This document shows, piece after piece, positions 16,760 to 22,313 of a stretch of 64,000 bases of DNA; within the stretch, counting starts at the first letter, position 1; every line of letters starts with the position of its first letter. Source of the stretch: an uncultured Bacteroidales bacterium (GTDB lineage Bacteria > Bacteroidota > Bacteroidia > Bacteroidales > UBA932); contig CAMVGM010000003.1 in the NCBI GenBank assembly GCA_947167015.1, forward strand, positions 1 to 64,000. Reading direction: 5' to 3'. Made by a program: the position numbers and the translations under genes. Below the pieces are notes generated by a model. The model worked only from the letters and a program-made list of their open reading frames with translations, did no database searches and was not told the origin of the DNA.

Positions 16760-18517
16760 ATGATGAAAACCCGAATCAACCTTCTTCAATTGCCGCTGCT
16801 GCTGCTTCTGGCCAGCGCCTGCAGCGATGACGATCCCCTCTCGCCCTTCGGGCCGGAGGGCGGCTTCCCGGGCGGTTTCTCCGGCACGGGGGCCACGACC
16901 ACACCTGTCGATCCGGTAACCCCGGACACCACCGTCAAAGACAATTTCGTCCTCGAAGACAGCGAAGACGACATTGCCAACACTACCTTCACCCGCACGA
17001 TTTCCATTGTCTTCGGCAGCGCGGGCGCCACCGTGACCGGAGATGAAAAAGGCCTCGTTTCCGTGTCCGGAAACGACGTGACCGTCAACAGTACCGGCAG
17101 CGGGGAAACCATCCGTTACGAGCTCTCAGGGGCCGCTTCCGACGGATTCCTGAAGATTTACGGCGACAAGAAACAAGCCCTCGTGCTCAAGGGACTGGAC
17201 CTGACCAACCCCGACGGCGCCGCCATCAACAACCAGAACAAGAAGCGCACGTTCGTCGTGCTGGAAGGCGCCAACAAGCTCGCAGACGGCAAGAAATACG
17301 CCGACACCCCGGAAGGAGAGGACGAAAAAGCGGCTCTCTTCAGCGAAGCGCAGCTGGTCTTCAGCGGCTCCGGTTCGCTGGAAGTCAATGCCACGGGCAA
17401 GGCCGGCATCACATCGGATGACTACGTGCGCGTGCTGGCGGGTCCGACCCTGACGGTCTCTTCGACCGGCGGGCATGGCCTCCGCGGCAAAGACGCCGTC
17501 GTGCTGACCGGCGGCACGCTGGACATCACGGTCAGCAAAAAGGGCAAGAAGGCCGTCTCGTCCGACGGTACGGTGCGCATCGACGGCGGACAGGCCCGCC
17601 TGACAGTCTCCGGCGGCGTGGACGATTCCGACCTGACCGACCTGTCCTCTTCGTCCGGCATCAAGGCCGACTCCACCTTCGTGATGACCGGCGGCTCGCT
17701 CAGCATCTCGAACAGCGGCCAGGGCGGGAAAGGCATCAGCGGTGACGGAGATGCCCTGATTTCCGGCGGCACCGTGGAAATCTCCGTCACGGGCACCAAC
17801 TACGAGGTCACGGGGGCGGACGCCGTCGGCCTGGAAGACACGACATCCTCCGCCAAGGGCATCAAGTTCGACGGCAAACTCGTCGTCACGGGCGGGACCG
17901 TCCGGGTGTCTGCCAAAAACCACGAAGCCATTGAGTCCAAGGGAGATATGGTCATCACGGGAGGAGAGGTCTATGGCAATTCTTCCGACGACGCCATCAA
18001 CGCGGGCGGCAACCTGATCGTGAACGGCGGCCGGGTCTGCGCCTGGTCCACGGGCAACGACGGCATCGACGCCAACGGGAACTGCTACATCCAGGGCGGC
18101 ATCGTCTATGCCGTCGGATCCGGCACGCCCGAGGTCGCCATCGACGCCAACACCGAAGGGGGATTCAAACTGTATGTCATCGGCGGGACGCTCGTCGCCG
18201 TCGGCGGCCTGGAAAACGGCGCGAACCTCTCCCAGGCCTGCTATCAGGCCACTTGGAGCCAGAGTACCTGGTATGCCCTCTACGCGGACGACAAGCCCGT
18301 CTTCGCGTTCAAGACGCCGGAGCGCGGCGGCAATTCCCTGGTCGTTTCCACCTCCGGGACGCCGGCCCTGAAGTCCGGCGTGTCCGTCAGCGGCGGGACG
18401 TCCCTGTTCGACGGCCAGGGCGCCGTGGACGGCAGCGTGTCCGGCGGCAGCGCCGTCTCCCTGTCTGCCTACAGCGGCGGCATGGGCGGACCCGGCGGCG
18501 GCCCCAGGGGTTGGTAG
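16760..18517 (+). CDS. DUF4353 / carbohydrate-binding (Cthe_2159-like) lipoprotein
   Basis: 585 aa; lipobox LLLASAC; repeated beta-helix-like turns (GGTLDITVSKKGKKAVSSDGTVRIDGG, SDDAINAGGNLIVNGG); Gly-rich C-terminus. Confidence 0.8.
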   Translation: MMKTRINLLQLPLLLLLASACSDDDPLSPFGPEGGFPGGFSGTGATTTPVDPVTPDTTVKDNFVLEDSEDDIANTTFTRTISIVFGSAGATVTGDEKGLVSVSGNDVTVNSTGSGETIRYELSGAASDGFLKIYGDKKQALVLKGLDLTNPDGAAINNQNKKRTFVVLEGANKLADGKKYADTPEGEDEKAALFSEAQLVFSGSGSLEVNATGKAGITSDDYVRVLAGPTLTVSSTGGHGLRGKDAVVLTGGTLDITVSKKGKKAVSSDGTVRIDGGQARLTVSGGVDDSDLTDLSSSSGIKADSTFVMTGGSLSISNSGQGGKGISGDGDALISGGTVEISVTGTNYEVTGADAVGLEDTTSSAKGIKFDGKLVVTGGTVRVSAKNHEAIESKGDMVITGGEVYGNSSDDAINAGGNLIVNGGRVCAWSTGNDGIDANGNCYIQGGIVYAVGSGTPEVAIDANTEGGFKLYVIGGTLVAVGGLENGANLSQACYQATWSQSTWYALYADDKPVFAFKTPERGGNSLVVSTSGTPALKSGVSVSGGTSLFDGQGAVDGSVSGGSAVSLSAYSGGMGGPGGGPRGW

Positions 18518-18532
18518 CCTACCAACCCTGGG
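18503..18532. repeat. Palindrome spanning the stop codons of two convergent genes
   Basis: GGGTTGGTAG-C-CTACCAACCC; both TAG stops lie in the arms; extended by CCCAG/CTGGG. Confidence 0.85.
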
Positions 18533-19514
18533 CTGAAACGGGGTGCTCCAGGCCGTCGGGCGAGACCAGCACAGCCCCGACCTCCGGCTGCGCCAGGTGG
18601 CCGATGATGTCGAATGTCTGGAATTCCGTACGGAAACGCTCGTACTGGGCAATCGGAACGACGTACAGGAGGTGATAGTCCTCGCCGCCGTTCATCGCCG
18701 CGGACACGGGGTCGAGGTTGAGCTCCCGGCCCAGGTCGAAACTGCCGCCCTCGAAAGGAATCTTGTCGGCATAGACCTTGACCCCCAGCCCGCTGTCGCG
18801 CCGCAGGCGCAGCAACGCATCCGCGAGGCCCCGGGTGACGAAATAGCCGTACGCCGGGGCGACTTTCGCCTCTTCAAGCTGCGCAGGCAGGTCCGGACCC
18901 AGTTCGGGCCGCAGATAGGCGCCCACGAGCATCCTGTACTTCTCGAGCGAGGCCTGGTCGGTGGAACCCTTTTCGAACTTGAGCCGTTCGCGCTCGAGTA
19001 CCTGCAGGCCGAGGAAAGCGGCGCCCAGGGCCCCCGACACGCAGACCAGGTCCTTGCTCTGCGCCACGGGGCGGGCGGCGGAAACGGCTGCGCTATGGCG
19101 CCCGGTGGCCGCCAGGGCCAGCGTCAGGCCGTTGCGGGAGGGCTGCAGGTCCAGGCTGAGATGCTTGTAGCCGTGCTCCTGCGCGGCGGCGACCAGCCCG
19201 CTCCAGAGTTCCTGTACCTGCGGGAAATCCAGTTTCGCGGAGACGCCGAGCTGCACCGAAAGGCCTTCGGGGTGCGCCAGGACGGCGTACAGCTCGCCCG
19301 TGACCTTCAGCACGGCCTTGCGCCCGAGGTGTTTCAGCGGGAAATAGACCAGGTCGAAGTCGATCCCTTCCAGCATCAGGCCGGAAGCCGTGGTAATGCA
19401 CTCCTGCGGCTTCGCTTCGAGCCACAGCGGCTCTTCGAAGGGGCGGTAGGGCGTGCCTTCGAAAAGCTGCCTTACCGCCTCGATACGGCCCAGTTCCGAG
19501 AAGGTCTGCGCCAT
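18519..19514 (-). CDS. ThiL-like (AIR-synthase-related) protein, apparently lacking the catalytic motifs
   Basis: 331 aa; ThiL-like overall layout (LMLEGIDFDLVYFPLKHLGRKA, VSGALGAAFLGLQVLERE, MNGGEDYHLLYVVP), but no GDD, GGDTT or DxSDGL. Confidence 0.75.
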   Translation of the reverse strand: MAQTFSELGRIEAVRQLFEGTPYRPFEEPLWLEAKPQECITTASGLMLEGIDFDLVYFPLKHLGRKAVLKVTGELYAVLAHPEGLSVQLGVSAKLDFPQVQELWSGLVAAAQEHGYKHLSLDLQPSRNGLTLALAATGRHSAAVSAARPVAQSKDLVCVSGALGAAFLGLQVLERERLKFEKGSTDQASLEKYRMLVGAYLRPELGPDLPAQLEEAKVAPAYGYFVTRGLADALLRLRRDSGLGVKVYADKIPFEGGSFDLGRELNLDPVSAAMNGGEDYHLLYVVPIAQYERFRTEFQTFDIIGHLAQPEVGAVLVSPDGLEHPVSAQGW

Positions 19515-19517
19515 CCG

Positions 19518-21056
19518 TTACAGGTTGCGGAGAAGGTTGTTGAGGTTCACCTTCGCGTCGATCATCGCACGGAGACCGTCGATGGGGACGCGCTCCTGCT
19601 GCATCGTGTCGCGGTCGCGCACGGTGACGCAGCGGTCGTTGAGGGACTCGTGGTCCACGGTGATGCAGAACGGGGTGCCGATGGCATCCTGGCGGCGGTA
19701 GCGCTTGCCGATGCTGTCCTTCTCCTCGTACTGGCAGTTGAAGTCGTATTTCAGCAGGTCCATCACCTCCTGGGCGAGTTCCGGCAGGCCGTCTTTCTTG
19801 ACGAGCGGCAGCACCGCGGCCTTGACGGGCGCGAGCGGGGCGGGGATGCTCATCACGACGCGGGTTTCGCCGTTCTCCAGCTGCTCCTCGTGCAGGGAGT
19901 GGGACAGGACGGCGAGCACCATACGGTCCACGCCGATGGATGTCTCGACCACGTACGGGGTGTAGGCGGCGCCTTCCTCGGGATCGAAGTATTCGATCTT
20001 CTTGCCGGAGTACTTCTGGTGGTTGCCCAGGTCGAAGTTCGTACGGCTGTGGATGCCCTCCAACTCCTTGAAACCGAAGGGGAAATTGAATTCGATGTCT
20101 GTCGCGGCGTTGGCGTAGTGGGCCAGCTTCTCGTGATCGTGGAAACGGTAGTTCTCGGCGCCCATGCCGATGTTGACGTGCCACTTCATGCGGTTCTCCT
20201 TCCACTTGGCGAACCACTCGAGTTCGGTGCCCGGCTTGATGAAGAACTGCATCTCCATCTGCTCGAACTCGCGCATGCGGAAGATGAACTGGCGGGCGAC
20301 GATCTCGTTGCGGAAAGCCTTGCCGATCTGCGCGATGCCGAAAGGAATCTTCATGCGGCCGGTCTTCTGGACGTTCAGGTAGTTCACGAAGATGCCCTGG
20401 GCGGTCTCGGGACGCAGGTAGATGGTGTTGGCGCCGTCGGCGGTGCTGCCCATCGAGGTGCTGAACATCAGGTTGAACTGGCGGACGTCCGTCCAGTTGC
20501 AGGTGCCGCTGATGGGGCAGACGATGCCGCAGTCGATGATGATCTGGCGGTATTCCGCGAAGTCGGAGGCCTGCTCGGCGGCCACGTAGCGGTTGTGGAC
20601 CTCGTCGTACTTGGCCTTTTCACGCAGGACATTAGGGTTGGTGGCGCGGAACTGCGCCTCGTCGAAGCCCTCGCCGAATTTCTTGCGGCCCTTCTCGACC
20701 TCCTTGTTGATCTTCTCCTCGATCTTGCCCAGGTAGTCCTCGATGAGGACGTCGGCGCGATAGCGCTTCTTGGAGTCCTTGTTGTCGATGAGCGGGTCGT
20801 TGAAGGCGCTCACGTGGCCGGAAGCCTCCCAGATGCGGGGGTGCATGAAGATGCAGGAGTCGATGCCCACGATGTTCTCGTGCATGCGGGTCATCGCGTT
20901 CCACCAGTATTGCTTGATGTTGTTCTTCAGTTCGACGCCCATCTGGCCGTAGTCGTACACGGCGGCCAGGCCGTCATAAATCTCGCTGGACGGGAAAATG
21001 AAACCGTACTCCTTGCAGTGTGCCACGAGTACCTTGAACAGTTCTTCTTGAGTCAT
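19518..21056 (-). CDS. glyS: Glycine--tRNA ligase
   Basis: 512 aa class II synthetase; FIFPSSEIYDGLAAVYDYGQMG, TIYLRPETAQGIFVNY, SIGVDRMVLAVL. Confidence 0.96.
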   Translation of the reverse strand: MTQEELFKVLVAHCKEYGFIFPSSEIYDGLAAVYDYGQMGVELKNNIKQYWWNAMTRMHENIVGIDSCIFMHPRIWEASGHVSAFNDPLIDNKDSKKRYRADVLIEDYLGKIEEKINKEVEKGRKKFGEGFDEAQFRATNPNVLREKAKYDEVHNRYVAAEQASDFAEYRQIIIDCGIVCPISGTCNWTDVRQFNLMFSTSMGSTADGANTIYLRPETAQGIFVNYLNVQKTGRMKIPFGIAQIGKAFRNEIVARQFIFRMREFEQMEMQFFIKPGTELEWFAKWKENRMKWHVNIGMGAENYRFHDHEKLAHYANAATDIEFNFPFGFKELEGIHSRTNFDLGNHQKYSGKKIEYFDPEEGAAYTPYVVETSIGVDRMVLAVLSHSLHEEQLENGETRVVMSIPAPLAPVKAAVLPLVKKDGLPELAQEVMDLLKYDFNCQYEEKDSIGKRYRRQDAIGTPFCITVDHESLNDRCVTVRDRDTMQQERVPIDGLRAMIDAKVNLNNLLRNL

Positions 21057-21104: not shown

Positions 21105-21539
21105 TCATTTCTGCGGAAAAATCTCCGCGAGCGGGCGCATAATGAACTCCCGCTGCCGCATCAGGGGGTGCGGAATCTTCAAATCGGGCGTATCGACCGT
21201 CAGATCGCCGTAGAGCAGGATGTCGATGTCGATGGGGCGGTCGCGGTAGATGCGGCGCCCTTCGGCGTCATATTCCGGCGCTCCGCGGCGGCCCATCGCC
21301 CGCTCGATCCGCTTGCAGATGTGCAGCAGCGTCTCCGGCCGCCGGGCGCTGCGGTAACGCACGACGCAGTTCAGGAACGGGGGGCCGTCGAAGCCCCACG
21401 CGGGCGTTTCGATGATGGAGGAAAGGGCCTCGTAGGGGCGACCCAGGGCCTTATCCAGACGTCGCAGCGCCTCTTCGATCCGGGCCCGGCGGTCGCCCAG
21501 GTTGGATCCGAGGGAGAAATAGACGTCCTGCTGCTTCAT
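21105..21539 (-). CDS. folK: 2-amino-4-hydroxy-6-hydroxymethyldihydropteridine pyrophosphokinase
   Basis: MKQQDVYFSLGSNLGDRRARIEEAL and RPIDIDILLYGDLTVDTPDLKIPHPLMRQREFIMRPLAEI; start trimmed from the longer ORF. Confidence 0.93.
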   Translation of the reverse strand: MKQQDVYFSLGSNLGDRRARIEEALRRLDKALGRPYEALSSIIETPAWGFDGPPFLNCVVRYRSARRPETLLHICKRIERAMGRRGAPEYDAEGRRIYRDRPIDIDILLYGDLTVDTPDLKIPHPLMRQREFIMRPLAEIFPQK

Positions 21540-21541
21540 CG

Positions 21542-21898
21542 CTAGAGTTCGGGGTCCCAGCCCAGGGCCACGCGGGCTTCGTCGGACAGGAGGCTGGAAT
21601 CCCAGGCGGGCTCCCAGACCAGTTCGATCTCGCATTTCGTCACGCCGGGCGTGTTTTCCACGCTGCGCTGCACCTCCGCGATCACTTCGTCCGCCATCGG
21701 ACAGTTGGGGGCGGTGAAGGTCATCTTGATGAACACCTCGTGTTCCTTGTTGATGTGGAGTTCATAGACGAGGCCCAGGTCATAGACGTTCACCGGGATT
21801 TCCGGGTCATAGACCTGCTTGAGGGACAGGACGACGTTCTCGTAGAGCGGGGCGAGTTCCTTCACGTCCTCGGGGGTCAATACTTCTTTCGGATCCAT
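21542..21898 (-). CDS. MIP18/DUF59 family Fe-S assembly protein (SufT-like)
   Basis: YDPEIPVNVYDLGLVYEL, MTFTAPNCPMADEV; start could instead be at 21925. Confidence 0.88.
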   Translation of the reverse strand: MDPKEVLTPEDVKELAPLYENVVLSLKQVYDPEIPVNVYDLGLVYELHINKEHEVFIKMTFTAPNCPMADEVIAEVQRSVENTPGVTKCEIELVWEPAWDSSLLSDEARVALGWDPEL

Positions 21899-21899
21899 C

Positions 21900-22313
21900 T
21901 CACACGTATTTTCGGGCCGTTTCACGGATGGTGGCGATCATCGAAGCCAGGCCTCCCGCACGTGTCGGGGAGAGGTTTTCACGCAGGCCGAGCCGGTCCA
22001 CGAAGGAAAAGTCGTCCGCGGCGATCTCGGCGGCCGGCCGGCCGGAATAGACGCCGACCAGCAGGGAGATGATGCCCTTGGTGATGATGGCGTCGCTGTC
22101 GGCCCGGAAAACGAGATTGCCATCTTCCAGCGTCGTGTCCAGCCACACCCGGGACTGGCAGCCCTTGATCAGGCGGTCTTCGGTCTTCAGTTCCTCCGGA
22201 AACGGGGGGAGCCGGTGGCCGAGATCGATCAGATATTCATATTTGTCCAGCCATTCGTCGTACATCGAGAAATCCTCGATAACCTCTGACTGGGCTTCCT
22301 GTAATGTTTTCAT
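21900..22313 (-). CDS. sufE: Cysteine desulfuration protein SufE
   Basis: MKTLQEAQSEVIEDF..., IKGCQSRVWLDT with the SufE active-site Cys; ATG overlaps the sufS stop. Confidence 0.92.
   Translation of the reverse strand: MKTLQEAQSEVIEDFSMYDEWLDKYEYLIDLGHRLPPFPEELKTEDRLIKGCQSRVWLDTTLEDGNLVFRADSDAIITKGIISLLVGVYSGRPAAEIAADDFSFVDRLGLRENLSPTRAGGLASMIATIRETARKYV

Follow-up and report, generated by a model that had tools for sequence, protein, structure and literature searches.

A conserved ThiL homologue of Bacteroidales with lost catalytic residues: a candidate pseudoenzyme

The pseudo-thiL gene and its neighbourhood

The window analysed here (the whole stretch of 64,000 nucleotides, from contig CAMVGM010000003.1 of an uncultured Bacteroidales bacterium) carries on its reverse strand, at positions 18519–19514, a gene that we call pseudo-thiL. 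The frame begins with ATG, contains no internal stops and encodes a protein of 331 amino acids (pseudo-ThiL), which profile, structure and alignment assign to the PurM/ThiL fold, with the catalytic residues lost. The gene for glycyl-tRNA synthetase, glyS (19518–21056, reverse strand; identified from the frame list and the neighbourhood comparison), ends 3 nt upstream. The same run continues upstream with a folK-like gene (21105–21635) and a sufT-like gene (21542–21925), both on the reverse strand and named from their translations. On the forward strand, at 16760–18517 and convergent with pseudo-thiL, lies a gene for a Cthe_2159-type carbohydrate-binding protein (PF14262, 3e-47), which occurs near pseudo-thiL only in close relatives. 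An Rfam search of the window gave no match.

The gene run sufS-sufE-sufT-folK-glyS-pseudo-thiL is common only to close relatives. The linkage to glyS that the sequence-only reading had pointed out is real in that the two genes, which share a strand in the window, are adjacent in all 25 of the closest loci, but the pairing is missing in the wider genus and family. We rejected a functional link to glyS for this reason, the pairing looking like local operon structure. Elsewhere in the window's family (f1), pseudo-thiL and sufB-pnuC-sufC are usually arranged divergently. We likewise rejected Fe-S assembly as a functional partner, since the thiL/sufB pair is also present with canonical ThiL at four loci in other families; this looks like inherited gene order, from which no function is inferred.

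Pseudo-ThiL is a homologue of ThiL

ThiL is thiamine-monophosphate (TMP) kinase, which normally carries out the closing step in making the vitamin B1 cofactor (TPP). The ThiL profile TIGR01379 matches the window protein with E = 5e-33 and 114.5 bits, below the curated equivalog cut-off of 184.15, and the match to the Pfam AIRS domain falls slightly under its cut-off. A PDB sequence search returned ThiL structures (1e-8). The AlphaFold model has a pLDDT of 92.5 and a pTM of 0.90, and the top PDB matches to it in Foldseek are all ThiL (PaThiL, AaThiL and AbThiL), with TM-scores (query) of up to 0.79. The window protein is thus a genuine ThiL homologue with the PurM/ThiL fold, and the intact-frame, ThiL-like protein first seen in the sequence is borne out by profile, PDB sequence matches and AlphaFold/Foldseek. 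With ThiL (TIGR01379; 3C9T, 5DD7, 8YKU) it shares fold, length, domain order and common descent, and it keeps the EGx-FDLxYxPLKHLG, SG-LGAA and NGGED segments; it differs from ThiL in lacking the GDD loop, STD, DxSDG and the TMP histidine, and in scoring under the curated cut-off.

The folds of HypE and SelD are the next structural neighbours of the model. HypE, SelD and PurM are ATP-using enzymes of the PurM/AIRS superfamily, and pseudo-ThiL has the same two-domain fold; the HypE profile, however, matches the window protein negligibly (E = 0.19).

Most catalytic residues are absent

In PaThiL, Asp30, Asp47, Asp75 and Asp211 are strictly conserved metal ligands and Asp122 is nearly so, while His54, Tyr189 and Asp214 of the Pseudomonas enzyme contact TMP, with Asp214 (of the SDG motif) reaching the TMP phosphate via a metal ion (PMC13254938). 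PaThiL numbering was mapped to alignment columns motif by motif; all positions given below lie on the reverse strand of the window. Residues 22–37 (19404–19451) occupy the expected site of the ATP-binding GDD loop (PaThiL Asp29/Asp30), where GDD is absent and the region is unconserved. Gly45 (19380–19382) stands in place of the metal ligand Asp47 of the STD motif, Glu74 (19293–19295) in place of Asp75 of the SD motif, and Phe225 (18840–18842) in place of Asp211, where DxSDG has become F225xTR228. Both TMP contacts His54 (EGxH motif) and Asp214 (SDG motif) are substituted, by Asp52 (19359–19361) and Arg228 (18831–18833), respectively. The equivalent of the GGDT aspartate, Asp122 (19149–19151; PaThiL Asp122), is retained.

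The sequence-only reading had listed four replaced motifs. The loss of the N-terminal GDD and the replacement of D-x-SDGL, with Phe225 and Arg228 standing for Asp211 and Asp214, hold in the alignment. For KVTGELYAV, read as replacing the SD helix, the aspartate is indeed gone but the position holds a glutamate (Glu74). The reading of LSLDLQPS as a lost GGDTT was mistaken, as its aspartate aligns with Asp122 and this ligand is kept. The comparison with ThiL proteins also showed that most catalytic residues are absent rather than shifted.

Across 35 fully degenerate copies, the position of His54 is Asp in all 35, position 225 is Phe or Leu in all 35, and position 122 is Asp or Glu in 34, whereas position 74 varies between genera (Glu, Pro, Asp or His). 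The Glu74 and Asp122 that remain in the window protein could allow divalent-metal or nucleotide binding.

A series from intact to degenerate ThiL

In the genome collection we found 220 encoded relatives. Identity in the best segment is 59–91% for the best 80 of these 220, all of which come from Bacteroidales or Bacteroidia MAGs, with one record labelled Candidatus Sodaliphilus; the motif losses are seen throughout the relatives displayed among these best 80. The substitutions are conserved, as the sequence-only reading had proposed to check, in more than 80 homologues from about 14 genera. Within the window's genus, a match was absent in 5 of 150 genomes.

In family f1 the ThiL profile matched in 190 of 200 genomes, with the cut-off exceeded in only 54, while in a sample of the order Bacteroidales 142 of 148 genomes were above the TIGR01379 cut-off. 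The window protein was matched in all 54 high-quality f1 genomes, the matched copy being of the degenerate form in most genera. Comparing residues by genus, we found intact catalytic sites in g9, g10, g22 and g25, a single Asp to Glu change in g15, partial catalytic loss in g2, g19, g21, g23, g24 and g26, and full degeneration except for the GGDT aspartate in g1, g3–g7, g11–g14, g16–g18 and g20. Four of the partially degenerate copies, L142 (g26), L144 (g24), L151 (g21) and L145 (g19), exceed the TIGR01379 equivalog cut-off though catalytic aspartates are missing. Partially degenerate native ThiL also occurs in families f2, f24 and f45; in f24 and f45 genomes with such a copy, a second canonical ThiL is present. 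Family f40 contains a distant ThiL-like paralogue of 372 amino acids (L217, G238:C51), which scores 148 bits to TIGR01379 and has a partly different motif set.

We built a ThiL tree without the catalytic-motif columns and defined the intact and degenerate groups for the tree tests from residues, not from the tree. All 35 sampled copies with full degeneration group together as one clade (SH-aLRT 100) within native Bacteroidales ThiL, and next to them lie the partially degenerate copies from g19 and g23. The tree requires at least seven switches between the intact and the degenerate state, at least four of them forced by well-supported branches. A single origin was rejected for all degenerate copies (AU p = 0.0024) and for those of f1 including g2 (AU p = 0.02), but not for those of f1 without g2 (AU p = 0.23), so the number of separate losses inside f1 is uncertain.

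Between the closest homologues dN/dS is 0.02–0.16, and about 0.1 in pairs with the window gene (Nei-Gojobori); some 70 columns are invariant among 33 homologues. Pseudo-ThiL descends from native Bacteroidales ThiL and is kept by purifying selection. With ThiL descent, lost catalytic residues, an intact frame and purifying selection, it is well supported as a conserved candidate pseudoenzyme derived from ThiL.

Regions still under constraint

When column conservation was ranked within the fully degenerate clade, the nucleotide and metal segments were found to have drifted (mean rank 0.08 for the GDD loop, 0.17 for the linker and 0.26 for STD), and the well-conserved segments were the substrate-side EGxD-FDLxYxPLKHLG (0.79), LGAA (0.71) and GGDD (0.74). 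The C-terminal 30 residues are relatively more conserved in the degenerate than in the intact form (0.63 versus 0.37). Ten positions are fixed to differing residues in the two forms, mostly at or beside the old catalytic motifs. This pattern agrees with a protein that has no catalytic role but whose cleft and dimer scaffold are conserved, with room for a changed ligand.

Canonical ThiL and TPK in the same genomes

The second canonical ThiL that the sequence-only reading had proposed to look for was found in the window's genome, on contig C72, whose GC content is similar to that of the window. This protein of 325 amino acids has all the motifs and matches Pfam AIRS with 104 bits; its identity to the window protein is only 26%, and in the tree it belongs to a separate ThiL lineage.

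Thiamine pyrophosphokinase (TPK) is absent in 7 of the 52 tested f1 genomes, all seven of which carry an over-cut-off ThiL. Among the 150 genomes of the window's genus, 111 have TPK only, 31 canonical ThiL only, three both and five neither (ThiL carriers were tallied as 34, with 33 listed and G423 assumed as the 34th). A ThiL fragment is present in G396, which is counted among these last five. The distributions of ThiL and TPK in the genus are associated with a Fisher p of 1.6e-23, uncorrected for relatedness; an independent-pair test found two to four independent changes on supported branches, never in the opposite direction and too few for significance. ThiL gain with TPK absence is also seen in g3, g6, g17 and g20. 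Canonical ThiL and TPK replace each other, and genomes of the genus keep the degenerate copy whether they carry canonical ThiL or only TPK, which suggests that pseudo-ThiL, differing in this from ThiL, is probably not the TPP-forming kinase of the cell. From its residues and the gene content taken together, it is highly probable that the window protein is dead as a TMP kinase.

The gene thiC is present in 12 of 63 f1 genomes. In nine of these 12 (G184, G190, G006, G047, G063, G010, G030, G017 and G036) no canonical ThiL was found and the degenerate copy is present; all nine match TPK, weakly in genus g18. Several of the nine have a full thi operon, as judged by eye from the translations, and in none have the catalytic residues been regained. 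If pseudo-ThiL is dead, TMP would have to be dephosphorylated in these nine genomes before TPK could act, a demand that counts against the non-catalytic reading.

In the window's genome, which is 78% complete, and in the close relatives G444, G376, G471 and G395, canonical ThiL is present and no ThiE or TPK was found; nor was ThiC found in the window's genome. These five organisms may live on imported thiamine monophosphate. A TPP riboswitch candidate just under threshold (49.8 bits; L165, contig C2:71818–71922) lies directly before a gene resembling a TonB-type outer-membrane receptor. In g6, g17 and g20 the second canonical ThiL adjoins thiE (G005:C9, G019:C13, G038:C28 and G081:C58), as if it had been acquired jointly with a thiamine salvage cluster.

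Interpretation

The explanation that we favour, with good though not complete confidence, is that pseudo-ThiL was once a TMP kinase, that the ATP and metal half of its site is gone, and that it persists as a conserved protein without catalytic activity. The suggestion of a pseudoenzyme made on first inspection gains support at sequence level from the residue loss, the second canonical ThiL, the conserved substitutions and the complementarity of TPK and ThiL. In native Bacteroidales ThiL, the half of the active site that binds ATP and metal would have decayed where TPK or a second ThiL supplies TPP and kinase activity is dispensable, and a catalysis-independent role would retain the gene. The protein would act as a PurM-fold homodimer, with the conserved substrate-side cleft and C-terminal strand perhaps binding a ligand or a partner protein. 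In a large group of uncultured gut Bacteroidales almost all genomes have held on to the gene, and selection maintains it, so it very probably serves another job than TPP formation.

The pocket could instead have been remodelled, at Asp52, Gly73-Glu74, Leu121-Asp122-Leu123 and Gly223-x-Phe225, so that a protein which is still an enzyme handles another substrate, as HypE, SelD and PurM do. The ten positions, mostly at or by the former motifs, that are conserved in both forms with a different residue would agree with this, as would the near-invariance of Phe225 and Asp52, the acidic residue at position 122 in 34 of 35 copies and the structural nearness of HypE and SelD. Yet the loop region that would bind the nucleotide is missing or has lost its conservation, we saw no fresh group of conserved acidic residues in its place, and the residue at position 74 changes from genus to genus; we regard such altered chemistry as unlikely, though it is the most credible of the alternatives. 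Much less probable is that the protein still phosphorylates TMP, genuinely if weakly, with a reduced ligand set. A single metal ion could sit on Glu74 and Asp122, and there are genomes with a de novo thi operon and pseudo-ThiL in which no other ThiL was detected, but all nine genomes with thiC and the degenerate copy only match TPK (weakly in g18), and where a genome lacks TPK, canonical ThiL is almost always there besides pseudo-ThiL. Moreover, three of the four strictly conserved metal ligands (PMC13254938), the TMP histidine and the SDG aspartate are lost. The lost catalytic residues and the five genomes of the genus without a match could also be those of a decaying relic heading towards a pseudogene. 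Against this, which we consider the least probable reading, stand the dN/dS of about 0.1, frames intact across about 14 genera, the approximately 70 invariant columns and the clade-specific fixed residues; widespread frame loss among close relatives, which would have spoken for a relic, was not seen.

As a conserved non-catalytic protein, pseudo-ThiL would resemble pseudoenzymes such as the pseudokinases in keeping its fold and pocket after the loss of its catalytic residues and in having a gene maintained by selection, and it differs from pseudokinases in that its PurM-like fold is unrelated to protein kinases. Our literature search found neither a ThiL-derived pseudoenzyme nor any account of ThiL having lost its function in Bacteroidetes. 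A broader account, to which we give slightly less than an even chance, is that native Bacteroidales ThiL has long been bifunctional, with a second role independent of catalysis; where a backup TPP route exists, through TPK or a foreign ThiL, the site decays and the gene stays, yielding pseudoenzymes repeatedly and independently.

For gut Bacteroidetes, ThiL has been given as the last step (PMC5613172). Automatic annotation could call the above-cut-off degenerate copies of g19, g21, g24 and g26 active kinases, so a vitamin B1 phenotype predicted for gut Bacteroidales on the strength of a ThiL call can be wrong. A single gene here shows a natural series from intact through partial to fully degenerate across some 26 genera of one family, and in most tested genomes the backup enzyme can be identified. 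This series allows testing of how an enzyme of metabolism turns into a conserved pseudoenzyme and of whether ThiL moonlights.
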